Shown: in pieces, positions 16,569 to 63,231 of the stretch
Position numbering within the stretch: the stretch's first letter is position 1
Layout of the letters: every line of letters begins with the position of its first letter
DNA from: a virus
Strand: one strand, 5' to 3'
DNA: 64,000 nt
Virus record (IMG/VR): IMGVR_UViG_3300031251_000002
Span: 102,451-166,450 of that record
Program-made: the position numbers and the translations under genes
The notes under the pieces: generated by a model
Database searches by the model: none
Seen by the model: only the letters and a program-made list of their open reading frames with translations
Told to the model about the DNA's origin: nothing

Positions 16569-19500
16569 ATGGCAATTCCTGCAAGTCCTGATCTAATCAC
16601 CGTTCTGACCTCAGACGGTGATGTTGATCTATTTCTGCCGTCCGACATCTATCGGTATGACTTCGATAACCGTCCGCTTCGTAACCTCATTCTGAATGAC
16701 GAGAGTCTTCAGACCGGGGCGAACGAGGCGATTACAGAGACATTCAACTCCCGCTATCCGGGTGTTGACTGGCTGACAACGACAGGTGCGCGAGGCCCAT
16801 ACCTAAACCTTAAGGCTCGTCTTGACGACATGGATTCGTCCGTCAAGAAGAACATCTACAGCCTTAATCAAGAACTGGCTGCTCGCTACCGGAGTCAGTA
16901 CGCCTCGGGCTTCTTCCTGAAGACAGGAGAGGTCTACGATGCCAACGTATTTGACGTAGTGAGCGCGTCCAGCACCCACATCCCGTTCGGTGCGATCTGC
17001 GTCCCGGATGCGAACCCGAATGACGTTAGCTCCAACCTCACATCTTCGATTCCTGCCAACTCGGTTTGGATCTCGACTCATGAGGGAACACGCTCGCCCT
17101 TTGTGGCTAAGCCGATTGAGGCGATGCTGGGCGGTTTCCATGTCCGTCTGTTCAACGAGTCCGCGCATGGCGCAGCCACATCTGGCTTCACCAACGGCGT
17201 GTCGATCCTGTTCGATGCAGCCCCAAGCAGCGGTCAGCGCTTCGATCTCGCCTTCCTAGAGTTCTGGTTCGCCCCGGTTGACGGCGGGCTGGCCAACACA
17301 GGTGGCACCGACTCCTTCTACGAGTACGGCGCTGTAGACTCCAACGCTTCACGGTCTGTTGACCAGTCAGCCGCAGCGGTTCAGGGAACCGTGTGGTTCG
17401 ATCCGACTACGATTGGCAACTACATTCAGTTGCGCCATCGGATCCGCGTCGTATCGAACATTGATTACGTCAACAAGCCATTCGGCATCAACGATGCGTC
17501 TGTCGTTGCACAGGGCGGTGCCGGTTCCCCGGTCGGTGGAAAGACATTCGTCAACGGCCTGTCGGTAATCAGCGATCCGGCGATCTGGGTTGCTGGAAGT
17601 GGCTCAGGCGGCGACAAGACAGCCCTCGGCACCTCGGATGGGTACGTGTACGCGATCCCGATGATGATCGTTTCGCGTAAGAACACGGCTGCGTGGAGCC
17701 TCTCTAATCAGAACGGCGGTCAGGCATCCAACTTCGGTGCTGGCGGACGACCGGATGGTTACACGCACCAGAAGTTCTCGCGTGGCGACATTCTTGACAT
17801 CCGTCCTCGCGCTTTCATGGATCGTACGAGCCTGATTGACGCGACTGAGGAATCATTCGACAAGCTGCTTCGTGGACGCCTTTTGACGGCCATGAGCCAG
17901 ATGTCCTACGAAGCCGGTTCGGATCTGTTCACCCAGTCACACCTAGGAACGTTTACGGATCCAGTCGGGATGTACGGAACCGAGCTTCTGGAGATGAACC
18001 AGCTTGGTACGACGAACACCGCGCACACGCATCCGATTCGTGACTTTTTGGACAACGGTTCGCTCGCCGTCGCTAGGCCAACGGGTTTGCGTCGTGTCTT
18101 CAGCCCAAGTCGGGATACGCAGGTTCAACCGTTCCACATCAACTTGAATGGTGGAGCAACGACCAATGCAGATTTCGTGACATGGGCACCTCCGGTCATT
18201 ACCTTGTTTGCAGCCGGTGTTTCGGCTCTCGGTCCTGCGAACGCAGTGATCGAAAGCGTTCCCATCATGTCGTGGCGCACCACGCACCTGCCGGTTGTTA
18301 CCATCGGTAATTGGTCAGGAATCGGCACCAATCAAGCAACCGCGACGGTTGATACGGGCGGGGTTGGTTATGACGCGACCGACACGATTGACGGGGCAGT
18401 GAACATCCGCTGGCCACAGTCAACCGGTCTGCGCCACTCGCCTACGCGGATTGACTATCAAGACTGGACCGCTGGCGCGAACGGATCTGGCAGCATCACC
18501 CCGTCCATCCGGGCTACCGGGTTGAACGGCGGTACGGGTGGCGCTCAGGGTCCGACCGGCCTCTTTGTTTCAACAGACGGCCACATCTACGTCTGCGATA
18601 CTAGCAATCACCGGATTCAAATCTATGCTCCGCCCGCACCGACTGATACGACGTTCACCATCGTAGGTCAGTTCCCCGGCTCAATCGGCACGTTGCCGGG
18701 TCCGGGATCTGACAACGCGCATCTAAATTCCCCACAGGCTGTGGCGGTTGATGGTTCTGGCAACATCTATGTTGCTGACACCAACAATCATCGGGTTGTG
18801 AAGCTGTCCAATGCGCTTCCGCTACCGGCCTACGTGAGCCAGTTCGGCACTGGCAGCATTGGAACAGGAACGACACATCTCAACACCCCACAGGGCGTTG
18901 TGGCTGGCGTCTCCAACGTCTACATCTCTGACACGAACAACTATCGTGTAGTGAAGCTTGACGGTTCATTGACCTTCGTAGACCAGTTCGGCGTAACCGG
19001 TGTACCGGGTTCGGATGCGACCCACTGCTTGAGTCCGCAGCGCCTCACGACTGGCATTGGTGGTTCGGGTGGTCGCCTCATCGTGGCTGACCAGACCCGC
19101 GTTCTAGTTTTGAACTCTGCCCCCTCACCGATGACGCTTGATCGGGTTCTTGTGGGTGGTCAGGGCTATGCAGACGGCACAGCCATCACCGCTTTGAACG
19201 CCATCAAGTCCATGGCTATCGTAGAAGACAGCAGCGGTAACAAGTACGTCAGCGGCGGTGGAACCTCAGCCATCTTCAAATTCAACTCGTCGTGGGTTCT
19301 TCAGGCCAAGTTTGGTGCGGGTACGAATGACCTGACAAGCTTGTGGTACGGCCCTGCGGATCCTAATTTCAACACGCATTGCGGGCTTACCGGGAACATC
19401 GTTGTTGATTCGGCAAACGGCTTTGTCTACGTAGCTGACAACACCTACGGCGTCTCCCCCGGCTATGCGCGAGTCCTAGTTCTTAATATTGCTGACTTGA

Positions 19501-21467
19501 CGTATCACAATGAGCTTTTGCTTTCGACGCCGCGTCCGTGGATGGACGGCTCGTCAGTTCTCCCGAAGTCCCCGACCCCGAACTACGTGCAGCCGTCCTG
19601 CAACATCGCTATGGATCTGGTCAACACGGAGATTTACATCACTCTGGACACGCTGGCATGCGTAGAAAAGTGGGACACCTCCCCGAGCGCGGGCAACCCG
19701 AATCTCTGGGCATACGAGACCAAGTTTGGCAATGGAACGCACATCACGGAATGGCCGTACTATCAAGGCTGGCGCAGTCCTGCTGACGATGCTCACAGCT
19801 TCTCGTTCCCCAAGACGGTCGCTGTCTCTCCCGATGGTTCGACCCTGTACGTGGGCGATCAGAATTTCCGAGCGCTTAACGACGGCCACCACGCAAGCCG
19901 TATCGTTAGCCTGACATGCAACACGGTCCCGATGACCATGAACGCATGGTTTGGCGACCTGAACGTAGCTGACACCTCTTGCGACCTCGGCTCAACCACT
20001 GACACGCCGTACTTCCAGTCCGTCAGCGGGCTGGTGGCGCAGGGAACCCGCGTTTACGCAACCGATGCGTACGCGAACCCGCCGCTTCTCGTTGTTCTTG
20101 ATGTCGCTGGCTGGACGGGAGTGACCCGAGTTACCGCGCCGTTCAAGGAAGCGATTACAGACACGACATGGACCTCAGCCAGCATCCCGGCTAGCGGTGT
20201 AAGCAGCAACTACCTGACGGTCAACGGGGGCAACTACAACGCTGTTCTAGGCGACTCGACGGTGCTGTACATCAACCCCGGTTTCTCGACCCAGCGCTGG
20301 GCTATCGACAACAGTGTTGTAACCGGCGCAAGTGTCGATAACCCGTTACGCGCTTTCCTGACCCTCGGAACCGGGATCGCGGTGCAGAAGCCGATTCAAA
20401 GCACCCAGCCGTTTGTCGGTGTCAGCGGTGTCTGGTACGACGCTTCAGTTACCCCAAACCGACTGGTGATCTCGGATCAAGTGACCAACGAAGTCTATGT
20501 CGTTTCGGTAGACATTGACACAAACTCGCTCCCAGCAGACTTCACGCTTCTGGGCGAGGCGGGCACCGCAGGTGTCTCAGGCTTCGGCTTCGGTGGCTGG
20601 GCACATCCAACGTCGGTCGCCATGAAGCAGTTGAGTGGAATCGACTACTTCTACTACACGGACTTCTACAACGGCTCGCTCCAGCGGTCATCGCCGTACT
20701 TTGCCTTCATCGAACGCGGAACCGGGCGGATCGAATGTCTTCTGCCGCCACCGGCAGGAACGACACTCCGGGTCTACTCGCGGTTCACCCCCTATCAGGG
20801 TGTCTACGTGCGGCCTGACTTCCTTGGCAACTCCGCGCACAACTCGACGGCCTACGCCCAGTCCTTGTTTGCTTCGCGCCTAGTCGTGAAGCCGTACAAG
20901 ATGCTGGCAACGACCCTTGGCCGGGTAGGTATCGACTCCGGAAACCTGATCACTGAGACCGCCTACTCTTCGCCGCTATCCCATCTTCCGCTTCCTCTGG
21001 GAACGACGACGGAGTACGCATGGCAGGGGGATCGCCTTCAGTTCATCGGGGACATGATCTCTCCGTCCAGCCTAGTGGTCCTGCCGCTGGTTCAGCTTGG
21101 CTCACAGCCTCAGGAGTGGGACACCGACTCGGAGTCCTTCTACGAGCGCTCAACCCGCATCGGTCGGCTGGAGGATCCAATCCTTAACAACGGCCACGGT
21201 GGAGCGCCCAGCTACACGCTGGCATCCAACGAGTTCCCGGTTGTTCAGTCCTTCTCGCTGTCCAACGTGGTTCCACACATCAACTACACATGGGGCACGG
21301 TTGATTACTATGGTGAGCTTCTCTTGTTCGTTCGCGGTGACTTCAATCTAAGTAACAAGAACGTCGTTGGTCCTAGGATCAATCCGTTCGTTCAGACAAA
21401 CACTGTTGTTGAGCTATACCGGATGAATGGAAACCCCTTCACTCGGATGGTTGAGACTAGAGGCTAA
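16569..21467 (+). CDS. Giant fibre protein with NHL beta-propeller repeats
   Basis: 1632 aa, the largest gene in the window. Residues 1-500 look like a fibre adaptor (LFLPSDIYRYDFDNRPLRNL, THPIRDFLDNGS). From about residue 650 there is a run of NHL-type repeats: GLFVSTDGHIYVCDTSNHRI, AVAVDGSGNIYVADTNNHRV, VVAGVSNVYISDTNNYRVVK, then more divergent copies to about 1370. NHL repeats build beta-propellers that bind protein, RNA or glycans. The last 250 residues are a separate beta-rich domain. A role in receptor recognition is plausible from location at the end of the tail operon. Only 1 base separates it from the next gene's ATG. Confidence 0.65.
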   Translation: MAIPASPDLITVLTSDGDVDLFLPSDIYRYDFDNRPLRNLILNDESLQTGANEAITETFNSRYPGVDWLTTTGARGPYLNLKARLDDMDSSVKKNIYSLNQELAARYRSQYASGFFLKTGEVYDANVFDVVSASSTHIPFGAICVPDANPNDVSSNLTSSIPANSVWISTHEGTRSPFVAKPIEAMLGGFHVRLFNESAHGAATSGFTNGVSILFDAAPSSGQRFDLAFLEFWFAPVDGGLANTGGTDSFYEYGAVDSNASRSVDQSAAAVQGTVWFDPTTIGNYIQLRHRIRVVSNIDYVNKPFGINDASVVAQGGAGSPVGGKTFVNGLSVISDPAIWVAGSGSGGDKTALGTSDGYVYAIPMMIVSRKNTAAWSLSNQNGGQASNFGAGGRPDGYTHQKFSRGDILDIRPRAFMDRTSLIDATEESFDKLLRGRLLTAMSQMSYEAGSDLFTQSHLGTFTDPVGMYGTELLEMNQLGTTNTAHTHPIRDFLDNGSLAVARPTGLRRVFSPSRDTQVQPFHINLNGGATTNADFVTWAPPVITLFAAGVSALGPANAVIESVPIMSWRTTHLPVVTIGNWSGIGTNQATATVDTGGVGYDATDTIDGAVNIRWPQSTGLRHSPTRIDYQDWTAGANGSGSITPSIRATGLNGGTGGAQGPTGLFVSTDGHIYVCDTSNHRIQIYAPPAPTDTTFTIVGQFPGSIGTLPGPGSDNAHLNSPQAVAVDGSGNIYVADTNNHRVVKLSNALPLPAYVSQFGTGSIGTGTTHLNTPQGVVAGVSNVYISDTNNYRVVKLDGSLTFVDQFGVTGVPGSDATHCLSPQRLTTGIGGSGGRLIVADQTRVLVLNSAPSPMTLDRVLVGGQGYADGTAITALNAIKSMAIVEDSSGNKYVSGGGTSAIFKFNSSWVLQAKFGAGTNDLTSLWYGPADPNFNTHCGLTGNIVVDSANGFVYVADNTYGVSPGYARVLVLNIADLTYHNELLLSTPRPWMDGSSVLPKSPTPNYVQPSCNIAMDLVNTEIYITLDTLACVEKWDTSPSAGNPNLWAYETKFGNGTHITEWPYYQGWRSPADDAHSFSFPKTVAVSPDGSTLYVGDQNFRALNDGHHASRIVSLTCNTVPMTMNAWFGDLNVADTSCDLGSTTDTPYFQSVSGLVAQGTRVYATDAYANPPLLVVLDVAGWTGVTRVTAPFKEAITDTTWTSASIPASGVSSNYLTVNGGNYNAVLGDSTVLYINPGFSTQRWAIDNSVVTGASVDNPLRAFLTLGTGIAVQKPIQSTQPFVGVSGVWYDASVTPNRLVISDQVTNEVYVVSVDIDTNSLPADFTLLGEAGTAGVSGFGFGGWAHPTSVAMKQLSGIDYFYYTDFYNGSLQRSSPYFAFIERGTGRIECLLPPPAGTTLRVYSRFTPYQGVYVRPDFLGNSAHNSTAYAQSLFASRLVVKPYKMLATTLGRVGIDSGNLITETAYSSPLSHLPLPLGTTTEYAWQGDRLQFIGDMISPSSLVVLPLVQLGSQPQEWDTDSESFYERSTRIGRLEDPILNNGHGGAPSYTLASNEFPVVQSFSLSNVVPHINYTWGTVDYYGELLLFVRGDFNLSNKNVVGPRINPFVQTNTVVELYRMNGNPFTRMVETRG

Positions 21468-34520: not shown

Positions 34521-35682
34521 TTCATGCTTGGTGATATCAGATTCTCACTATCACAACTTCCCGTCCTTTGGGGGGCAGCGGATCCCGGAAGGAACAGCGA
34601 TTCAGGACGAGCAGTCCGGGGACTCGCGCTTTCCGGGTTGCAACCAGAGGGCGGTGCGCCTCTTCAACGCGACTGAGCGGGCGTTCGCGTACGCCAAGAA
34701 GAGGGACATCAAGACGGTCTTCCATCTGGGCGACATGTTCCACACGAAGGCCAACGTCCCTCTTGCCGTCCTGAACGGCGCTACCAAGGTTTTCCTGAGC
34801 GGTCGAGCGATGGGCCTGAACTTCTACGCCCTACCCGGTAATCACGACTACGCCGGGAAGTCGCCGCGTTGGACGACCCTGCACACGCTGTTTCCCATGT
34901 ACGACCTGAAGACGAGTCAGGCACCGGACCTTCGCCTGATTACTATCGGGGAGTACGTTCTCGCGGCAGTCATGGTGCCGTACATGTCTTCCAAGGCGTC
35001 GATTCTAGAGGCCCTGTCTGACTTGTGCCCGCGAGTCGCCGCTGCTCTGGAAGACGGCTCAGCAACCCACTCGGCGCTGTTCATGCACACCTCCGTTGAC
35101 GGGGCGACTGTAGGCCCGCATGAGTACGTCATGCGCGAAGGCTTGAAGATGAGCGAGATTCCGTTCGCGTACTTCAACACCGTGATCTCGGGGCACTACC
35201 ATAAGCATCAGCGAATGCTGCGCGGGGAAGACGAGTTCATCTATGCCGGTGCGATTGCTCAGCACAACTTCGGGGAGCGGGACTACACGCCCGGTTACCT
35301 CCGTCTCGACCTGACTCCAGAGGGCATTGATGTGGTTCAGGTCGAGAACAAGAAGACGCCCCGCTTTCATTCGTTGGTCTGCACGACCCGCGAGGAACTA
35401 GAGGCTGTCGCTGAGGAACTGAAGACGGCTGAGACCCCGGACTACGTACACATTGACTGGCAGGGCGATGTGTATCCTAATGATGTTGAGCTTCCTGAAG
35501 AGTGGGTCATTGTCGAGAAGGCTCATACCAGTGCGCTGGTCAAGCCGAGAATCGAAGTCAGCTTAACGAAGGATACGCCAGAGACACTGGTGGACAAGTA
35601 CGTTGCTATGACAGCCGACCCGGAAGATTACAAAAACTTCGTTGATCTTGGACTGGAGATCATCCATGGCGGGGACGAATGA
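34510..35682 (+). CDS. sbcD: SbcD/Mre11-like nuclease subunit (T4 gp47-like)
   Basis: 390 aa from ATG 34510. Calcineurin-like metallophosphoesterase motifs: LVISDSHYHN, VFHLGDMFHTKA, LPGNHDY and VISGHYHKH supply the two-metal site. The following gene is SbcC. Together they trim DNA ends for recombination, as T4 gp46/gp47. The start lies within the tail of the inserted HNH gene, so its original upstream context has been replaced. ATGA overlap with sbcC. Confidence 0.85.
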   Translation: MSANSCLVISDSHYHNFPSFGGQRIPEGTAIQDEQSGDSRFPGCNQRAVRLFNATERAFAYAKKRDIKTVFHLGDMFHTKANVPLAVLNGATKVFLSGRAMGLNFYALPGNHDYAGKSPRWTTLHTLFPMYDLKTSQAPDLRLITIGEYVLAAVMVPYMSSKASILEALSDLCPRVAAALEDGSATHSALFMHTSVDGATVGPHEYVMREGLKMSEIPFAYFNTVISGHYHKHQRMLRGEDEFIYAGAIAQHNFGERDYTPGYLRLDLTPEGIDVVQVENKKTPRFHSLVCTTREELEAVAEELKTAETPDYVHIDWQGDVYPNDVELPEEWVIVEKAHTSALVKPRIEVSLTKDTPETLVDKYVAMTADPEDYKNFVDLGLEIIHGGDE

Positions 35683-37526
35683 TTAGTTTCAGCAGCTTGA
35701 CGATCAAGAACTTCTTCTCCGTCGAACAGGCATACCTGCCGTTGGACGTTAACGGGACTGTTCTCGTTACTGGCGAGGTGCGTGGAAAAGCCTCTGCCTT
35801 CTCCAGCAACGGGGCCGGAAAGACAACGCTTTTCAATGCGCTAGTGTGGGGCCTGTTTGGTCGCACGATTCGTGATCTTCCTGAGGACGAGAATGTGATC
35901 CGTCTCGGGACGGACGAAGCATCGGTTACAGTCGAACTGCTGGTCAATGACGAACGCTTCTCCATCCAGCGCTCCCGGCGGCGTGGCAAGCCGTCGAAGC
36001 TGCGGGTTCTGAACGAGGCGGGCGAGGATGTCATCGTCGGCTCCTCTGTTGTTCAGATGTCCCGGTTTCTGGAAGACCGGATACTGCACTGCTCCTTTGA
36101 TGCGTTCTGTAACACAGTGTATTTCCCGCAAGGCAGCTTCACGTTCTTTACTCAGGCGAACGATGTCGAGCGGAAGAAGATTTTTGATCGCCTCCTCGGG
36201 ACAGCCGAATTCGTGGACTGGGAGAAACGGGCGAAGACGCTCAAGGTTACTTACGAGAACGCCTTGGACAACGCGGCTGCGACCCGCAAGCTTCACCAGT
36301 CCGTGATGGAACGAGACATCTATGATCGTGATCGCATTCCGGGTGCTGAGCAGGAGCTAGCGCGACGGCGTAAGAACGAACTGGAAAACCTCGGTCTTGA
36401 GGCCGTCTCTCCCGCTGCCGTACAGGCGAGTCTAGCCAAAGCGCGGAAGCAGGAGAAGGCTGCGCGAGCGGCTCTAGAGGCTGGTAGTGCCCAGATGGCG
36501 TCTAGGACGGCTCTGGAAGCCCGTCTGAACGATTTGAAGGCCCAGCAGAGCGCTGCGCGGGATACCTACAACAAGGTCTACAACAAGCTGACAGCCGTTA
36601 AGGCGCTGGCCGAAGCCGGTAACTGTCCAACCTGCTTTCAGGACATCTCCCCCGGTCGGAGTAAGACGGCTGTGAAAGAGTTTCTAGTAGATGTTACCGC
36701 TCGGAAGACGGAGTTGGATGCGATTGAAGCGAAAGTGGCTGAGATCGTGTTACCAGAGCGGGTTCGGGTCGGTGATCTCCGCGACGACCTGAAGCAGATT
36801 GAGGCCAAGGTCAAGGATTTGGAAGACGAGCTTGAGGCCATCAAGACTCAGGCGACTGATTACGAGAAGGCACAGGCCGTGGTCGAGGCTCGCTATCAGG
36901 AAGGCTTGGCGAACTTTCAAGCGCGGACGGCAGCGCTGAACGAGAGGATTGAGTCCGCTCAGGAACTGATTGCTGGGTATGACAAAGAGATCGCGGAATT
37001 GACCGCCTCTGTCCGTCAAGCAGCATTCTGGATTACGGGGTTCGGGCCGAAGGGGATCCGCTCCCTGATCTTTGAGAACATCATGCCGTACCTGAATGAG
37101 CGAGCTAACCACTACAGCAGCATCCTGACGGACGGGACTATCGAGATCAACATCAGTGCGACCTCCAAGCTCAAGAGCGGGGATGAGCGGGAGAAGATTT
37201 TCGTCTCTGCCGTCAACTCTGACGGTGCCTCCGTCTACGAAGGCAACTCGGGTGGCGAGCGCAAGCGGGTTGATCTCTGCATCCTTCTGGCGCTTCAGGA
37301 TCTCATCCTCAACCGCAGTCAGGGGTCTATCCGTCTTTCCGTCTATGACGAGCTTCTGGACGAACTGGACGAAGAGGGCATCGAGCGGGTTGTCGAGCTT
37401 CTCAAGGAGCGCGGGCAGAACCAGCCGGTGTTCCTGATTAGCCACAACGCTGCACTTAAGGGGTTCTTTGAGGACACGATGGTGGTTGTCAAGAGGAACG
37501 GTATCTCCAAAATCGAATCAGCTTAA
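35679..37526 (+). CDS. sbcC: SbcC/Rad50-like ATPase (T4 gp46-like)
   Basis: 615 aa. N-terminal Walker A is FSSNGAGKTTLFNALVWGLFG. Central coiled coils flank a zinc-hook motif CPTC (GNCPTCFQDISPG). The C-terminal half has the ABC signature NSGGERKRVDLCILLALQDLI and the Walker B RLSVYDELLDELDEEG. It forms the ATP-driven clamp for the SbcD nuclease. Compact coiled coil, as usual for phage forms. The gap to the next gene (54 bases) contains no terminator. Confidence 0.9.
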   Translation: MISFSSLTIKNFFSVEQAYLPLDVNGTVLVTGEVRGKASAFSSNGAGKTTLFNALVWGLFGRTIRDLPEDENVIRLGTDEASVTVELLVNDERFSIQRSRRRGKPSKLRVLNEAGEDVIVGSSVVQMSRFLEDRILHCSFDAFCNTVYFPQGSFTFFTQANDVERKKIFDRLLGTAEFVDWEKRAKTLKVTYENALDNAAATRKLHQSVMERDIYDRDRIPGAEQELARRRKNELENLGLEAVSPAAVQASLAKARKQEKAARAALEAGSAQMASRTALEARLNDLKAQQSAARDTYNKVYNKLTAVKALAEAGNCPTCFQDISPGRSKTAVKEFLVDVTARKTELDAIEAKVAEIVLPERVRVGDLRDDLKQIEAKVKDLEDELEAIKTQATDYEKAQAVVEARYQEGLANFQARTAALNERIESAQELIAGYDKEIAELTASVRQAAFWITGFGPKGIRSLIFENIMPYLNERANHYSSILTDGTIEINISATSKLKSGDEREKIFVSAVNSDGASVYEGNSGGERKRVDLCILLALQDLILNRSQGSIRLSVYDELLDELDEEGIERVVELLKERGQNQPVFLISHNAALKGFFEDTMVVVKRNGISKIESA

Positions 37527-41578: not shown

Positions 41579-41610
41579 AGGCCGGGAGTAACGTCCCGGC
41601 CTTTTCTTTT
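41579..41610 (+). terminator. Strong rho-independent terminator
   Basis: AGGCCGGGA and TCCCGGCCT form a perfect 9-bp stem with loop GTAACG, followed by TTTTCTTTT. Confidence 0.9.
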
Positions 41611-41612
41611 GC

Positions 41613-41641
41613 TTGACTCAGGTAACCCCATCCTTCAAAAT
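41613..41641 (+). promoter_or_regulatory. Sigma70-like promoter
   Basis: TTGACT, 17-base spacer, CAAAAT, directly behind a terminator and about 40 bases before ATG 41683. It would drive the zinc-ribbon and sigma-like genes. Confidence 0.7.
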
Positions 41642-42540: not shown

Positions 42541-42958
42541 AGCACATGATGTCCTAGAGGCCGCGCTGCCGCTCAAGCCGCCCGTTCCGGACGATAGCTA
42601 TCCCGAACTGGTAGAGACGATGGTGGGCATGCTGGCCGACGCCAATCCGGTACTTCGCATCCTGCGCGACTCCTTCGATCCAGTAGGCGTCATCAAGTTC
42701 ATTTCGATGTTCAATGGCATGGAAGTAACCATCCAGTCCCGCGCCTACTGGACAACGGTATTTCGAGACGCGCATATCCATATGGTCTTGCGGCTGACTC
42801 CGAAGAAGGAAGACGAAGCGGCATGGCGAAAAGCCGTCCTCGCGCTGGCCCGGAAGTACAACCTGCCGCCGAAGGTGGTTGTCAAGATTTCAACCAAGGT
42901 GCGGGCTGCGATCAACAAACGGAGCGTGTATGAAGAGACTCAGATTGATGCTAGCTAG
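42533..42958 (+). CDS. Hypothetical protein
   Basis: 141 aa, ATG overlapping the end of the sigma-like gene by eight bases. Residues 45-80 (VLRILRDSFDPVGVIKFISMFNGMEVTIQSR) and a basic C-terminal helical region (WRKAVLALARKYNLPPKVVVKISTKVRAAINKRS) are visible. Co-translation with the sigma-like protein suggests a partner, but no family is recognised. Confidence 0.5.
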   Translation: MNKAHDVLEAALPLKPPVPDDSYPELVETMVGMLADANPVLRILRDSFDPVGVIKFISMFNGMEVTIQSRAYWTTVFRDAHIHMVLRLTPKKEDEAAWRKAVLALARKYNLPPKVVVKISTKVRAAINKRSVYEETQIDAS

Positions 42959-43208
42959 GTTACAGGCTTTTGGTCGTTTGCTCTGGGCGACCTTCAGCGC
43001 CGAACCGGCTGACATCACGATCCATAATTGCTACACCTGTCTTCGACCGTTAAGAGAGTGGAGAGCTAATGCCGCCTACAAATTTCTCGCATGTCCTCAT
43101 TGGCACCATGCTGTTGTTATCGTTCTTGGGGCTGACGTTCGCGGTAGCGATGTGGTCGTGGCGGCTCTACCGGAGGCGCGAGCTATGGCGCGAGAAATCG
43201 GGCCTTAA
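42930..43208 (+). CDS. Small Cys/His-containing protein overlapping its neighbours
   Basis: 92 aa from ATG 42930 (GGAG upstream). A basic N-terminus (MKRLRLMLARLQAFGRLLWA) precedes NCYTCLRPLRE and ACPHWHHAVV, a possible metal site. It overlaps the gene before by 29 bases and the gene after by 140 bases in another frame. Both the overlap partner's TM start and this Cys/His pattern look real, so dual coding is possible; alternatively only the first 45 codons matter as a coupling peptide. Confidence 0.4.
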   Translation: MKRLRLMLARLQAFGRLLWATFSAEPADITIHNCYTCLRPLREWRANAAYKFLACPHWHHAVVIVLGADVRGSDVVVAALPEARAMAREIGP

Positions 43209-43965
43209 GGCTCTCTTTGTCTCCTGTAACACGGAGGAGTCAGTCAAGGAACTGAAGGCTCTCCGTCGCGCCGGATTCAACACGATTGTTACCTCCAGCC
43301 CGCCGACCGTCTCGACGTTGGAGAATGCCAAGAAGGCGGGGCTGGGTGTCATCGCGTACATCTCGACCGCTTCGGCCAAGGCGTTGTCTCAGGACCGCCA
43401 AGCGTATCGGCTGCTGCGGCAGATTACGACGGCACCTAACTTCATGGGATTTCACTACGCCAACGAAGCCGGTGTCGAGGGTCGTACCTCGGCATTCGAT
43501 CAGAGGTACACGTACTCGCTCCTGAAGACGATGTTTCCCTCTGCTCTGGCAATCACCTTCCTGCGCGTCGTTCTCGGGAAGATTGATGAGAAGTTTCTGG
43601 ACGAGTGCTTCTGCCCGGAAGCAACCGATCTGGTGGTCCCGTACTTTTACCCGGTCGGGGAGACGGCGCTGGGGGATGTTAAGAACGAGTTCCTCTGGGA
43701 GACGACGTTGAACAGCCTCCTCCTGCCGGTCTACATTCGGCTTCAGTCGTGGTCGCTCCGATGGGGCATCGTCCGGCCCGTCATGCCCATGCTTCAGGGC
43801 TTTGAGGAGCCAGAGTACCCGGTGGATGACCGATTCATCGCCCGCCAAATGTCTGTCTACACCCATCTCTGGCCGATTCGGGATGTACTGGTAGGCGGCA
43901 CGGACCGGATTAAAAATTCAAGGCTTTTGGAGCAGGTAACCGCTGCGCTTCGATTCTTAAGGTGA
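43069..43965 (+). CDS. Membrane-anchored TIM-barrel-like protein, glycosidase-like
   Basis: 298 aa, SD GGAGAG. A TM segment at residues 9-30 (LIGTMLLLSFLGLTFAVAMW) is followed by a basic stop-transfer (RLYRRRELWREK). The rest alternates strands and helices as in a TIM barrel: ALFVSCNTEESVKELKALRRAGFNTIVTS, GLGVIAYISTASA, FMGFHYANEAG, DLVVPYFYPVG. The E in YANEAG could be catalytic as in glycoside hydrolases. Substrate unknown. Its stop lies at the foot of the RNA structure that follows. Confidence 0.5.
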   Translation: MPPTNFSHVLIGTMLLLSFLGLTFAVAMWSWRLYRRRELWREKSGLKALFVSCNTEESVKELKALRRAGFNTIVTSSPPTVSTLENAKKAGLGVIAYISTASAKALSQDRQAYRLLRQITTAPNFMGFHYANEAGVEGRTSAFDQRYTYSLLKTMFPSALAITFLRVVLGKIDEKFLDECFCPEATDLVVPYFYPVGETALGDVKNEFLWETTLNSLLLPVYIRLQSWSLRWGIVRPVMPMLQGFEEPEYPVDDRFIARQMSVYTHLWPIRDVLVGGTDRIKNSRLLEQVTAALRFLR

Positions 43966-44137
43966 CTCTCGGGTAGGCAGGTAGAAGTTGGATGTGGAGG
44001 CTTTAGTTGCTGAGATTTTTCTCGGTCAGATCACTCCATAAAAAGTGTCCTGCCGCCGTGTGACCGGCGCTCTCCCCGCCACAGGGGATCTGATGTTGTG
44101 TGGGGTGACCATCCGAATTCCTCACCCCGAGAGTCAT
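43963..44137 (+). ncRNA. Candidate 175-nt structured RNA
   Basis: TGACTCTCGGG (43963-43973) pairs perfectly with CCCGAGAGTCA (44126-44136), followed by TTTTT. Nested inside: GGCAGG/CCTGCC (43976-43981, 44049-44054), CTGAGA-TTT-TTCTCGG, GCCG-TGTGA-CCGGC and CCCC-GCCACA-GGGG hairpins. TCAGATC (44026-44032) and GATCTGA (44087-44093) could add a pseudoknot. No coding frame fills the stretch. The architecture is that of a stable multibranched RNA; no known class recognised. Confidence 0.65.
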
Positions 44138-44160
44138 TTTTGTGGTAATCTGGAGGTTAC

Positions 44161-44454
44161 ATGACGATGCCTAGTTGGATCATCCGTTGTTCGCATTGCG
44201 GTCGGCAGATCCGTGTGGAGTCAATCTCCTACACGAATGAATGCCCCGCCTGTTCCAACGTTCTACCTCCAGTGGATCTGAGTCGCCTCACGTTGCCCAA
44301 GGGGAAAGAGGAAAAGGCCCCCTTGCCAGTACCGGAGGCTAACAAGCCGGTGGATCAGCCTGAAGAGACAGCCTCTGTCGTTGTGCCCGAGATGGTAGAT
44401 GACGATCAGGGGTTCGATCTGGGTGGCGTCCATTTGGATGATGAGGATGCGTGA
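44161..44454 (+). CDS. Zinc-ribbon protein with acidic tail
   Basis: 97 aa, SD TGGAGG. N-terminal zinc ribbon: RCSHCGRQI and NECPACSNVLP. The remainder is Pro-rich then acidic (EMVDDDQGFDLGG, LDDEDA). No TM segment. The ribbon type resembles RPB9/TFIIS-like or generic nucleic-acid binding ribbons. It ends in a GTGA overlap with the transglycosylase gene, an odd pairing with no obvious functional link. Confidence 0.6.
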   Translation: MTMPSWIIRCSHCGRQIRVESISYTNECPACSNVLPPVDLSRLTLPKGKEEKAPLPVPEANKPVDQPEETASVVVPEMVDDDQGFDLGGVHLDDEDA

Positions 44455-45062: not shown

Positions 45063-45084
45063 GCCCCTTTTCCCTCCGTTTTTG

Positions 45085-45116
45085 AGGCCCCTTTTCAGGG
45101 GCCTTTTCCTTTTTCT
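45085..45116 (+). terminator. Rho-independent terminator
   Basis: AGGCCCC-TTTTCA-GGGGCCT hairpin followed by TTTCCTTTTTC. Confidence 0.85.
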
Positions 45117-45160: not shown

Positions 45161-45189
45161 TTGACATCGTAGTGTGACTCAAGTAACAT
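45161..45189 (+). promoter_or_regulatory. Sigma70-like promoter of the small-gene region
   Basis: TTGACA, exactly 17 bases, TAACAT. It lies just after a terminator and about 330 bases before the first coding gene, so it makes a long leader. Confidence 0.8.
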
Positions 45190-45194
45190 TCTCC

Positions 45195-45520
45195 CTGTCG
45201 AAAGGACCGCCAATGTAAACCCTAAGGAAACAGCCCCCCAGAAATGCGTGAGGCACAGTGACGACGGGGAACCTCCTCGGTTCCAAAGGTCACAGGCGGG
45301 GCGGTGATGAAGAGGGAGCGGAAACGCTCGGGCCAAGGTCGGCAAAGATCGAGGGCAACGCGGTAGACGGTTCCACAAGGGGAGCCGCCTAATGGGGAAC
45401 GCGGATGAAATTCCCTCTCTTTTTGAACGCCCGAAGTTGCAAGACTTCCCGCTGTCCGTGGGGAAAGCAGTGGTGAGGAAACCACGGTCTTGCTCGGGAG
45501 TCGGGCGTTCAAATGGAGGT
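45195..45520 (+). ncRNA. Long structured leader RNA
   Basis: About 325 gene-free transcribed bases. The 5' part has GTGAC/GTCAC enclosing GGAACC-TCCTC-GGTTCC, a GAGCG-GAAA-CGCTC hairpin, and GGCGG...AGCCGCC long-range pairing (near 45297 and 45385). The 3' part is the separately listed 92-base element. Polypurine loops such as GGAAAC and GGCAAAGATCGAGGG look like tertiary-contact sequence. It may be a riboswitch-like control region or a stable RNA processed from the message. Confidence 0.55.
45422..45513 (+). promoter_or_regulatory. 92-base cloverleaf-like element at the ribosome site
   Basis: TTTGAACGCCCGA (45422-45434) pairs perfectly with TCGGGCGTTCAAA (45501-45513). Inside, GCAAGAC/GTCTTGC (45439-45445, 45487-45493) forms a second helix that carries two hairpins, TTCCC/GGGAA and GTGGT/ACCAC. 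The SD TGGAGG for ATG 45527 begins right at its 3' foot, so folding could gate translation. Confidence 0.6.
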
Positions 45521-45526
45521 CTCAAA

Positions 45527-51723: not shown

Positions 51724-51752
51724 TTGACAACGGCCCCTTATTGCACTACACT
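51724..51752 (+). promoter_or_regulatory. Sigma70-like promoter
   Basis: TTGACA, exactly 17 bases, TACACT. It starts a roughly 280-base gene-free transcript ending at a hairpin terminator at 52009. Confidence 0.75.
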
Positions 51753-51756
51753 ACAC

Positions 51757-52036
51757 CTGCGATTGAGTTAGTGGTTCCTTGAAATTGTTCCCCCGGTCAA
51801 GCGGCTCGAAAGGTCGGACGGACAGGGGAGCTAGGACGCTGGGGGCGCTGAAAGATGCGCCGGGGCTGGCTCCGGTTGGCCCAAGAAAAAGCGGATGTAA
51901 CACCGGTCTCTCGGTCCCCGATAGCAAGGGGGGCTTGAGACGGCCCAAGAAAGGGCGGTGGCACGACCCCGACTGAAATTCCCGGCTTGGAAAATAGTCA
52001 AATCTTAGAGGGCGTGAAAACTTCGCGCCTTCTTTA
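51757..52036 (+). ncRNA. Candidate free-standing structured RNA with own promoter and terminator
   Basis: About 280 bases without a convincing gene. Helices visible: GGCGC-TGAAAGAT-GCGCC, GGGC/GCCC (51863-51882), GTCTC/GAGAC enclosing CCCC-GATAGCAA-GGGG, and GCCC-AAGAAA-GGGC. GGCCCAAGAAA occurs twice (51878, 51942). The end is a terminator-like hairpin: GGCGTGAA (52011-52018), loop AAC, TTCGCGCC (52022-52029), then TTCTTT. It may be a stable RNA, or a leader for 52067 by read-through. Not matched to a class I know. Confidence 0.6.
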
Positions 52037-52066
52037 GAGTTGATTAATGAAAGGAAAGGAAAAAAT

Positions 52067-61979: not shown

Positions 61980-62155
61980 ATCATGTTGACGCGCTGGTAT
62001 CTCTCCGCAAGCCCCAATAGCTTTTCAAAAAAGCATGGGGTCGAACTGTGCCCAGCGACTATGCTTAGGCAGCAGATCGAGGGTACGGATATCTAGGGCT
62101 TTGGGGTTTCAGAAGTAGGATCCACCAAAGCCCGCCTAGAAAGCGGGCTTTTTTG
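61980..62155 (+). ncRNA. Attenuator-like leader RNA before the tRNA array
   Basis: About 175 gene-free bases between a promoter and a strong terminator. CGCTGG/CCAGCG closes a domain containing CCCCA...TGGGG and the hairpin GCTTTT-CAA-AAAAGC. Then GGGCTTTGG (62096-62104) can pair with CCAAAGCCC (62125-62133), which covers the left arm of the terminator. The two pairings exclude each other, the usual design of a transcriptional attenuator or riboswitch. It could also be a free small RNA. Confidence 0.6.
62129..62154 (+). terminator. Rho-independent terminator before tRNA genes
   Basis: AGCCCGC-CTAGAAA-GCGGGCT followed by TTTTT. Read-through would supply the tRNA array. A second stem, GCCCCC/GGGGGC (62191-62210), lies before the first tRNA without a T tract. 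Confidence 0.85.
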
Positions 62156-62225: not shown

Positions 62226-62299
62226 AGGAGCGTGGTGTAATAGCAGCACGACGGATTCCAAACCCGTCAGCGAGGGGGCAGTACCTTCCGCTCCTGCCA
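62226..62299 (+). tRNA. tRNA-Trp (CCA), with unusual T loop
   Basis: Acceptor AGGAGCG pairs with CGCTCCT, discriminator G, CCA encoded. D arm TGGTGTAATAGCAGCAC; anticodon loop TTCCAAA gives CCA with an A-C mismatch closing the stem. The T stem GAGGG/CCTTC is present but its loop GGCAGTA lacks the usual TTCRA, so tertiary folding would be atypical. Confidence 0.75.
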
Positions 62300-62302
62300 A
62301 TT

Positions 62303-62390
62303 GGATAGGTGGCGAAATGGTAGCCGCGCTGGTTTGCTAAACCGGTGAGCCTCCTTGGCTCTGTGGGTTCAAGTCCCTCCCTATCCTCCA
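62303..62390 (+). tRNA. tRNA-Ser (GCU)
   Basis: Acceptor GGATAGG/CCTATCC, discriminator T, CCA encoded. Anticodon loop TTGCTAA gives GCU. The long variable arm GAGCC-TCCTT-GGCTC marks class II, as for Ser. T loop TTCAAGT. Confidence 0.85.
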
Positions 62391-62391
62391 T

Positions 62392-62467
62392 GGACTGCTA
62401 GCTTTGAAGGTCAAAGCGCCCACCTGAAGAGCGGGAGAACGTCGTTCAATTCGACGGCAGTCCACCA
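62392..62467 (+). tRNA. tRNA-Phe (GAA)
   Basis: Acceptor GGACTGC/GCAGTCC, discriminator A, CCA encoded. Anticodon loop CTGAAGA gives GAA, with one A-C mismatch in the stem. T arm CGTCG-TTCAATT-CGACG is canonical. Confidence 0.85.
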
Positions 62468-62478
62468 TGAAAGTTTTT

Positions 62479-62551
62479 AGTAGGGAGAATGAGTATTCCA
62501 GTTGGTCTCATAAGCCAACCTCCGTGGGTGCGACTCCCACCCCTGCTACCA
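62479..62551 (+). tRNA. tRNA with CAU anticodon (Met, or Ile if C34 is modified)
   Basis: Acceptor AGTAGGG/CCCTGCT, discriminator A, CCA encoded. Anticodon loop CTCATAA. The D loop is very short (GAAT-GAGT-ATTC) and the T loop TGCGACT departs from TTC. Elongator Met or tRNA-Ile2 cannot be told apart by eye. Confidence 0.75.
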
Positions 62552-62552
62552 T

Positions 62553-62626
62553 GCCTTCGTAGCCAAGTAGTTAGGCACCGGTCTGCAAAACCGGTTACGT
62601 TGGTGCAATTCCAACCGAAGGCTCCA
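62553..62626 (+). tRNA. tRNA-Cys (GCA)
   Basis: Acceptor GCCTTCG/CGAAGGC, discriminator T (U73 is a Cys identity base), CCA encoded. Anticodon stem-loop CCGGT-CTGCAAA-ACCGG gives GCA. T loop TGCAATT. Confidence 0.85.
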
Positions 62627-62639
62627 TTGAAATCGGTCT

Positions 62640-62706
62640 GGGGGAAGAGACGTTCGACTCGTCAAGAGGGGCTTGCTCCTCCTTAGTGTAACGGCAGCAC
62701 TCCCCC
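62640..62706 (+). ncRNA. Circularly permuted tRNA-like element
   Basis: Order of parts: anticodon-stem 3' strand GGGGGA (62640-62645); T arm GACG-TTCGACT-CGTC (62649-62663) with canonical T loop; acceptor 3' strand GAGGGG (62666-62671); linker CTTG; acceptor 5' strand CTCCTC (62676-62681); D arm AGTG-TAACGGCAG-CACT; anticodon-stem 5' strand TCCCCC (62701-62706). All five pairings of a cloverleaf exist, but the 3' half precedes the 5' half. The D-arm stretch is 14/17 identical to that of the tRNA-Trp here. No CCA is encoded in the linker. It may be a functional permuted tRNA, a processed structural RNA, or the remnant of a deletion between two tandem tRNAs. Confidence 0.6.
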
Positions 62707-62709
62707 GTG

Positions 62710-62786
62710 CAAATGACAGCCGTAAGGCGCGGGTAAAACGTAGGCGTCACGACACGCCAACCCTTCAAAGAAGGGGCCGTCATTTG
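62710..62786 (+). ncRNA. Second cloverleaf-like RNA following the permuted element
   Basis: CAAATGAC (62710-62717) pairs perfectly with GTCATTTG (62779-62786). Three hairpins lie inside: GCC-GTAA-GGC (GNRA tetraloop), GGCGT-CACGAC-ACGCC and CCCTTC-AAA-GAAGGG. The loops are not those of a tRNA. A competing helix CCCGTGC/GCGCGGG links it to the end of the preceding element, so the two may form one folding unit. Confidence 0.6.
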
Positions 62787-62806
62787 GTAATTTCCTCTAA
62801 ATCAAT

Positions 62807-62881
62807 CCGGGTGTGGGTCAGTGGCTGATCGCCTGTTTCGGGGACAGGATTAGGGAGGTTCAATTCCTCTCACCCGGACCA
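62807..62881 (+). tRNA. tRNA-Pro (CGG)
   Basis: Acceptor CCGGGTG/CACCCGG, discriminator A, CCA encoded. Anticodon stem-loop CCTGT-TTCGGGG-ACAGG gives CGG with G37, as in Pro tRNAs. T loop TTCAATT. Confidence 0.85.
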
Positions 62882-62977
62882 AAGTTTCCCGAAGAATTCC
62901 GAGAACTGTTTGGTGGTAGCTTGTCAAGGAGCCGGGGGGTATATGAAAACCCACGGTGAAAGTAGAAACCACAAACC
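62882..62977 (+). other. 96-base spacer in the tRNA array, no gene
   Basis: No protein frame or complete tRNA is visible between tRNA-Pro and tRNA-Tyr. GTTTGGTGG near the 5' side and CCACAAAC at the 3' side can pair with a one-base bulge. I see nothing further. Confidence 0.4.
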
Positions 62978-63067
62978 GGGCAAGTCGGATAGTAGCGATT
63001 CCAGCAGACTGTAAATCTGCCCTGTTTACAGCTAACACCGAAGGTGCAATTCCTTCCTTGCCCACCA
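62978..63067 (+). tRNA. tRNA-Tyr (GUA)
   Basis: Acceptor GGGCAAG/CTTGCCC, discriminator A, CCA encoded. Anticodon stem-loop GCAGA-CTGTAAA-TCTGC gives GUA. A long variable arm (TGTTTACAGCTAACA) marks class II, normal for bacterial Tyr. T loop TGCAATT. Confidence 0.85.
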
Positions 63068-63069
63068 TC

Positions 63070-63078
63070 TGCTATAAT
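63070..63078 (+). promoter_or_regulatory. Extended -10 promoter inside the tRNA array
   Basis: TGCTATAAT is a perfect extended -10 (TGnTATAAT), three bases after tRNA-Tyr. It would transcribe the hairpin-rich spacer (CCCG-GACA-CGGG and GCCGA-GTT-TCGG) and tRNA-Leu independently of the upstream leader. Confidence 0.6.
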
Positions 63079-63154
63079 TTTTGAATGCCGCATACAGTCG
63101 AGACTCATACCCGGACACGGGCCGAGTTTCGGGCACGAACCGGGAAACGTTAAT

Positions 63155-63231
63155 CCGCAGGTGAGGCAATTGGCAGACCTTCCAAACTCAAAATTTGGAG
63201 CTTGCGAGTTCAAATCTCGCCCTGCGGACCA
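63155..63231 (+). tRNA. tRNA with CAA anticodon (Leu codon UUG) on a class I body
   Basis: Acceptor CCGCAGG/CCTGCGG, discriminator A, CCA encoded. Anticodon stem-loop CCAAA-CTCAAAA-TTTGG gives CAA. T arm GCGAG-TTCAAAT-CTCGC is canonical. The variable loop is only 5 bases (AGCTT); bacterial tRNA-Leu normally has a long arm, so this is atypical for Leu. Confidence 0.8.

Follow-up and report, generated by a model that had tools for sequence, protein, structure and literature searches.

The element considered here lies in an IMG/VR virus contig of 166,450 bases, the final 64 kb of which (64,000 nucleotides) make up the window, that is, the whole stretch of DNA that was analysed. By its genes the virus is a tailed myophage, with a contractile sheath, a portal, a head protease and a head protein, together with a family A DNA polymerase, a DnaB-like helicase, a UvsX-like recombinase and an RtcB-type ligase; its nearest sheath relatives in IMG/VR reach only about 50% identity. 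The genes of the row around the element (41659, 41869, 42533, 43069, 44161 and 44451, named by their first positions) are all on the + strand. A conventional intrinsic terminator stands at each end of this row (Table 1), and no promoter-like site appears between 41641 and 45084 in a scan limited to sigma-70-type sites, the counts of which are near those of shuffled sequences. The membrane-anchored protein encoded upstream of the element matches no family in Pfam or PHROG, and its single-sequence AlphaFold model, with a mean pLDDT of 45 and the N-terminal helix alone confident, is of too low quality to be used in a search by fold. Over 42930-43208 runs another open frame, marked by pairs of cysteines (MKRLRLMLARLQAFGRLLWATF...NCYTCLRPL...), which overlaps the start of the 43069 gene in a different reading frame; this start may be mis-set, or the genes may overlap there. 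On the downstream side, the zinc-ribbon likeness of the 44161 product comes from matches that all fall under the curated cut-offs, and the 44451 product matches PF01464 at 75.3 bits (cut-off 21.3) as well as PHROG tail and lysis families.

Table 1. Features of the element and of the surrounding row of genes (positions in the window).
Feature	Position	Strand	Basis or remark
Conventional intrinsic terminator before the row	41579-41602		Pattern scan
Promoter-like site after the first terminator	41613-41641		Scan
Short zinc-ribbon-like gene	41659	+	Start of the row
Upstream gene, 298-aa protein, N-terminal membrane helix	43069-43965	+	ORF list
P1 closing helix, 5' strand TGACTCTCGGG	43963-43973	+	Perfect inverted repeat, pair probability
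P2 arm	43976-44054	+	MFE, centroid, pair probabilities >0.9
P2 helix GGCAGG/CCTGCC	43976-43981/44049-44054	+	Base of the P2 arm
Helix with core TGGAG/CTCCA	43995-43999/44034-44038	+	Within the P2 arm
Hairpin CTGAGA/TCTCGG	44010-44015/44020-44025	+	Within the P2 arm
Possible pseudoknot strand TCAGATC	44026-44032	+	7-bp complementarity to 44087-44093
Small hairpin GCCG/CGGC	44055-44068	+	MFE and centroid
Hairpin TCCCC/GGGGA	44073-44088	+	Pair probability 0.81-0.90
Possible pseudoknot strand GATCTGA	44087-44093	+	7-bp complementarity to 44026-44032
Alternative local hairpin GGGGTGA/TCACCCC	44102-44128	+	Its formation would cost P1 its 3 innermost pairs
P1 closing helix, 3' strand CCCGAGAGTCA	44126-44136	+	Perfect inverted repeat, pair probability
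T5 tract TTTTT adjoining P1	44137-44141	+	Terminator-like geometry, 152-nt structured loop
Shine-Dalgarno-like TGGAGGTT region, with the ATG (44161) that starts the next gene	44151-44163	+	Sequence
Downstream gene 1, 97-aa protein, weakly zinc-ribbon-like (CxxC pairs)	44161-44454	+	
Downstream gene 2, SLT-domain lytic transglycosylase, N-terminal hydrophobic segment	44451-45062	+	
Conventional intrinsic terminator at the operon end	45084-45105	+	Pattern scan
Promoter-like site beyond the operon terminator, TTGACA-17-TAACAT	45161-45189		Scan

The 43069 and 44161 genes are separated by a gap of 195 nt (43966-44160), which, between 41.4 and 45.0 kb, is the only + strand gap of at least 150 nt to contain no ORF as long as 60 aa. 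As the sequence-only reading had maintained, no convincing gene occupies it: the + strand holds only a 39-aa GTG ORF and the - strand small ORFs of up to 44 aa. The GTG ORF was rejected as a hidden gene, having no evident Shine-Dalgarno sequence and overlapping the next start as ATGA. The same reading had placed the 5' foot of the structure on a stop codon, and the TGA at 43963-43965 that ends the upstream ORF does form the first three bases of the closing helix, P1. Read-through of this stop codon was discarded, as the frame runs just 15 codons to the next TGA. At the opposite end, the Shine-Dalgarno sequence of the next gene follows the T tract at a distance of about 10 nt and, no promoter-like site intervening, the 44161 and 44451 genes should be transcribed through the element.

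P1 is an 11-bp perfect inverted repeat, directly adjoined by TTTTT and then by a G, so that the perfect closing helix with its T tract, first picked out in the sequence-only reading, is there to the letter. Ten of its 11 pairs have a probability of 0.95-1.0 and the outermost one 0.76. When folded as RNA, 43963-44137 reaches a minimum free energy (MFE) of -73.2 kcal/mol, against a mean of -57.2 (sd 4.1) for dinucleotide shuffles; the corresponding z is -3.86, and none of 200 shuffles did as well. The further claim, of a branched fold enclosed by P1, is upheld as a prediction, with pair probabilities above 0.9 for P2 (GGCAGG/CCUGCC), UGGAG/CUCCA and CUGAGA/UCUCGG. A CCCCGC/GTGGGG helix competes with the TCCCC/GGGGA hairpin, at a probability of about 0.1 and only 2.1 kcal/mol worse, and a fold constrained to contain the GGGGTGA/TCACCCC hairpin comes to -69.7 vs -73.2 kcal/mol. 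The roughly 37 nt that precede the 3' strand of P1 (44089-44125) are open in the centroid, with alternatives within 2-4 kcal/mol. P1, the P2 arm and two hairpins are well determined in the models and this last segment is not, the predicted structure being sound in outline. In folds of successive prefixes, the inner arms form first and P1 closes last.

How far does all this exceed what any sequence might offer? The earlier suggestion of a pseudoknot survives in part only: TCAGATC and GATCTGA are present, and their pairing would cross P2, but a crossing helix of at least 7 bp arises in 61 of 200 shuffled sequences, and the crossing helix beyond chance that a pseudoknotted RNA calls for is not found. 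Two bases of this pairing are also used by the UCCCC/GGGGA hairpin, and its energy gain, with no pseudoknot penalty yet counted, would be just about -3.5 kcal/mol; the competing CCCCGC/GTGGGG helix would put GATCTGA in its loop. Among 220 randomly sampled windows of 175 nt, drawn from both strands of the phage genome, 1.4% have a z of -3.5 or below and so equal the element in this respect, and many selected windows, coding ones among them, fold equally well. The element's fold ranks among the top 1-2% of windows and is not unique. It is worth remembering how little a good z-score and a 7-bp pseudoknot prove when they come from a single sequence. The 11-bp repeat taken alone is also at chance level, with four distinct cases at 60-250 nt spacing in the window vs about three expected. 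The gap may be an ordinary intergenic spacer that came by its strong predicted fold and its inverted repeat with no selection acting on the RNA, an incidental origin that is also consistent with the want of demonstrated conservation, and which we hold to be unlikely, though by no means negligible. What this account has difficulty with is that P1, a T5 immediately behind it and a long stretch without genes coincide within a compact phage operon, a coincidence improbable by chance, even if the objection loses some of its force from having been raised after the fact. The feature that does exceed chance is the long-range helix ending at the T5 tract. A 9-mer repeat abutting T5 at 60-250 spacing occurs in this single case on the + strand of the window, where shuffles give a mean of 0.1, and an 11-bp repeat abutting T5 in none of 40 shuffles of the window, in a test that was chosen after seeing the sequence and is weaker than it looks; the remaining 100 kb of the record contain only one shorter-range case.

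A search for relatives of the element came back empty. Rfam 15 has no family above gathering threshold for the element (the window yields tRNAs only), and a relaxed Rfam search of 43850-44250 returned chance matches only. Sensitive blastn with the element found no DNA homologue in cultured phages and, among plasmids, only a chance match at 19% coverage. No second copy was found in the phage's own genome, by DNA or by covariance model, and the covariance model matched none of 38 tail-sheath-related virus records. Scans of IMG/VR with two 17-mers yielded three 19-nt matches beyond which similarity ends, dismissed as chance; all three lie inside long open frames, and one of them has no P1 partner. 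A gapped P1 pattern found nothing in IMG/VR. The surrounding proteins behave likewise: relatives of the 43069 and 44451 proteins and of the 35679 ATPase were not found in IMG/VR and prokaryote genomes, while tail-sheath relatives were found at about 50% identity and below; the 43069 protein occurs in none of the 38 tail-sheath-related records and the ATPase in only three. A search with the major head protein found no relative either, which shows that the collection holds no close kin of the phage; that the RNA is not seen elsewhere is therefore weak evidence on how well it is conserved. A mobile element with terminal inverted repeats was also considered and set aside, there being no second copy in the genome and no visible flanking duplication.

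These negative results bear on the proposal that the stretch gives a discrete phage small RNA of some 175-180 nt, cleaved at the stop codon, ending in the U tract and acting in trans. The closed ends, the oligo-U 3' end, the start at the stop codon and the stable predicted inner domain all suit such a molecule, and it is possible that a 175-nt RNA is cut from the 43069 message, as had been put forward at the outset. It would be similar in length to the phi29-type pRNA, which is 174 nt, and would likewise have paired ends; it differs in matching nothing in Rfam, at gathering or relaxed thresholds, and in belonging to a myophage the terminase of which is far from the gap. A closing helix of both ends around internal hairpins is also found in retron ncRNA (msr-msd), a candidate excluded by the lack of a reverse transcriptase (PF00078) in the 166-kb record, where control searches were positive. 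GOLLD and ROOL are large phage or prophage RNAs whose conservation is accompanied by covariation and which are often found close to tRNA islands, and many GOLLD RNAs exceed 800 nt (PMC12286853); the element resembles them in being phage-encoded, highly structured (here by prediction) and of unknown function, and departs from them as an orphan of 175 nt, some 18 kb from the tRNA array and with no Rfam match. Phage-derived small RNAs are treated as a recognised class in PMC12197685. Yet the sigma-70-type scan found no promoter-like site inside or just before the element, the databases searched gave neither homologue nor second copy nor known family, and the next gene's Shine-Dalgarno sequence, about 10 nt past the U tract, is placed as one expects of a leader or spacer. 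We consider a free trans-acting RNA rather improbable. With a Shine-Dalgarno sequence and a start codon directly after the T tract, a cis-acting intercistronic element fits at least as well.

One way of acting in cis would be translational control of the zinc-ribbon gene, the fold and its competing pairings setting the accessibility of the Shine-Dalgarno sequence (around 44151). The Shine-Dalgarno and start region is predicted to sit in weak local helices adjoining the domain, its openness varies with the amount of flanking sequence folded, and UGGAGG is present both in the P2 arm and at the Shine-Dalgarno sequence, so that CUCCA could pair with either. However, the pairing of CUCCA with the Shine-Dalgarno sequence occurs in no fold of the full element, the inner helix having a probability of 0.98, and control of this kind seems very doubtful.

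The explanation that we prefer, tentatively and at somewhat less than an even chance, is a transcribed cis-acting intercistronic RNA of terminator-like build, an attenuator or a 3' end with partial or conditional read-through. P1 abuts T5, an arrangement that window shuffles do not reproduce at 11 bp; P1 is highly probable, the z is low and P1 closes last in prefix folds; and the gap, long where gaps of at least 150 nt are rare, sits within a co-directional row that has a terminator at each end and no promoter-like site between. During transcription, a compact branched domain would form first in the nascent RNA, and the 11-bp closure of P1 would complete the folding just when RNA polymerase arrives at the U5 tract. 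This closure could produce a 3' end or a pause after the 43069 message, lowering the expression of the downstream zinc-ribbon and transglycosylase genes. The ribosome that ends the 43069 gene would sit on the UGA at the foot of P1 and cover its 5' strand, so that upstream translation could delay closure and favour read-through, with whatever benefit the phage might draw from it.

Canonical intrinsic terminators have short loops, of about 3-8 nt, and their hairpin forms at the exit channel. Like them and like attenuators, the element has a G+C-containing helix followed directly by a U tract, between genes of one operon; unlike them, its helix closes over a branched domain of 152 nt and its U tract counts only five. 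Because of this loop it falls outside the usual definition of an intrinsic terminator, and the terminator scan misses it. It would work, if at all, like an attenuator, by analogy; the local hairpin at 44102-44128 displaces only 3 bp of P1, and no clear antiterminator is seen. The tna operon offers a parallel: its control by TnaC involves ribosome stalling at a stop codon (PMC8429421, PMC3902921), and here too the continuation of transcription could hinge on a ribosome positioned at a stop codon. In our case, however, the upstream frame is a 298-aa gene and no leader peptide, and what would be masked is an RNA helix. Several observations speak against the terminator-like interpretation: the phage employs short-loop terminators at 41579, 45084 and 62127, the + strand of the window has no second such structure with T5, the U tract is short and then interrupted by G, the fold is among the top 1-2% of windows without being unique, with no homologue found, and efficient termination would silence the downstream genes.

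A still bolder proposal, which we regard as a long shot, is that the element represents a small class of phage RNA that is new: a ribosome-sensed terminator in which a long-range helix closes a branched domain, so that expression of a cell-wall enzyme would be limited to times when the upstream message is being translated. If the element is real, it would be a case of intrinsic-type termination in which a long-range helix closes over a folded RNA domain, in a position to control a cell-wall enzyme of a phage remote from those in culture. For now it is an orphan structure prediction, of use chiefly as a candidate in the mapping of transcripts.

Two other non-coding stretches of the window are strongly folded. 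The first, 45190-45525, lies directly 3' of the promoter-like site at 45161-45189 and has an imperfect 18-nt closing repeat (45417-45434/45501-45518); it has no Rfam match, and phage blastn gave only a chance match. The second, 51765-52045, follows a promoter-like site TTGACA-17-TACACT (51724-51752); it has no phage match and resembles neither the 45190 stretch nor the 43963 element. Shared ancestry of the element with these stretches was rejected, local alignment scores being at shuffle level. As regards tRNA, the RtcB-type ligase is a tRNA splicing ligase gene (35611-36795 of the record; phrog_1075, E 7e-133). A tRNA-Val called by ARAGORN at 18741-18826, inside the 1632-aa ORF 16569-21467, is unconfirmed by Rfam and probably false. 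Behind a terminator at 62127-62151, an array of tRNA genes extends over 62226-63231, seven of them recognised by Rfam and six of these by ARAGORN, with spacers that are non-coding and possibly structured.
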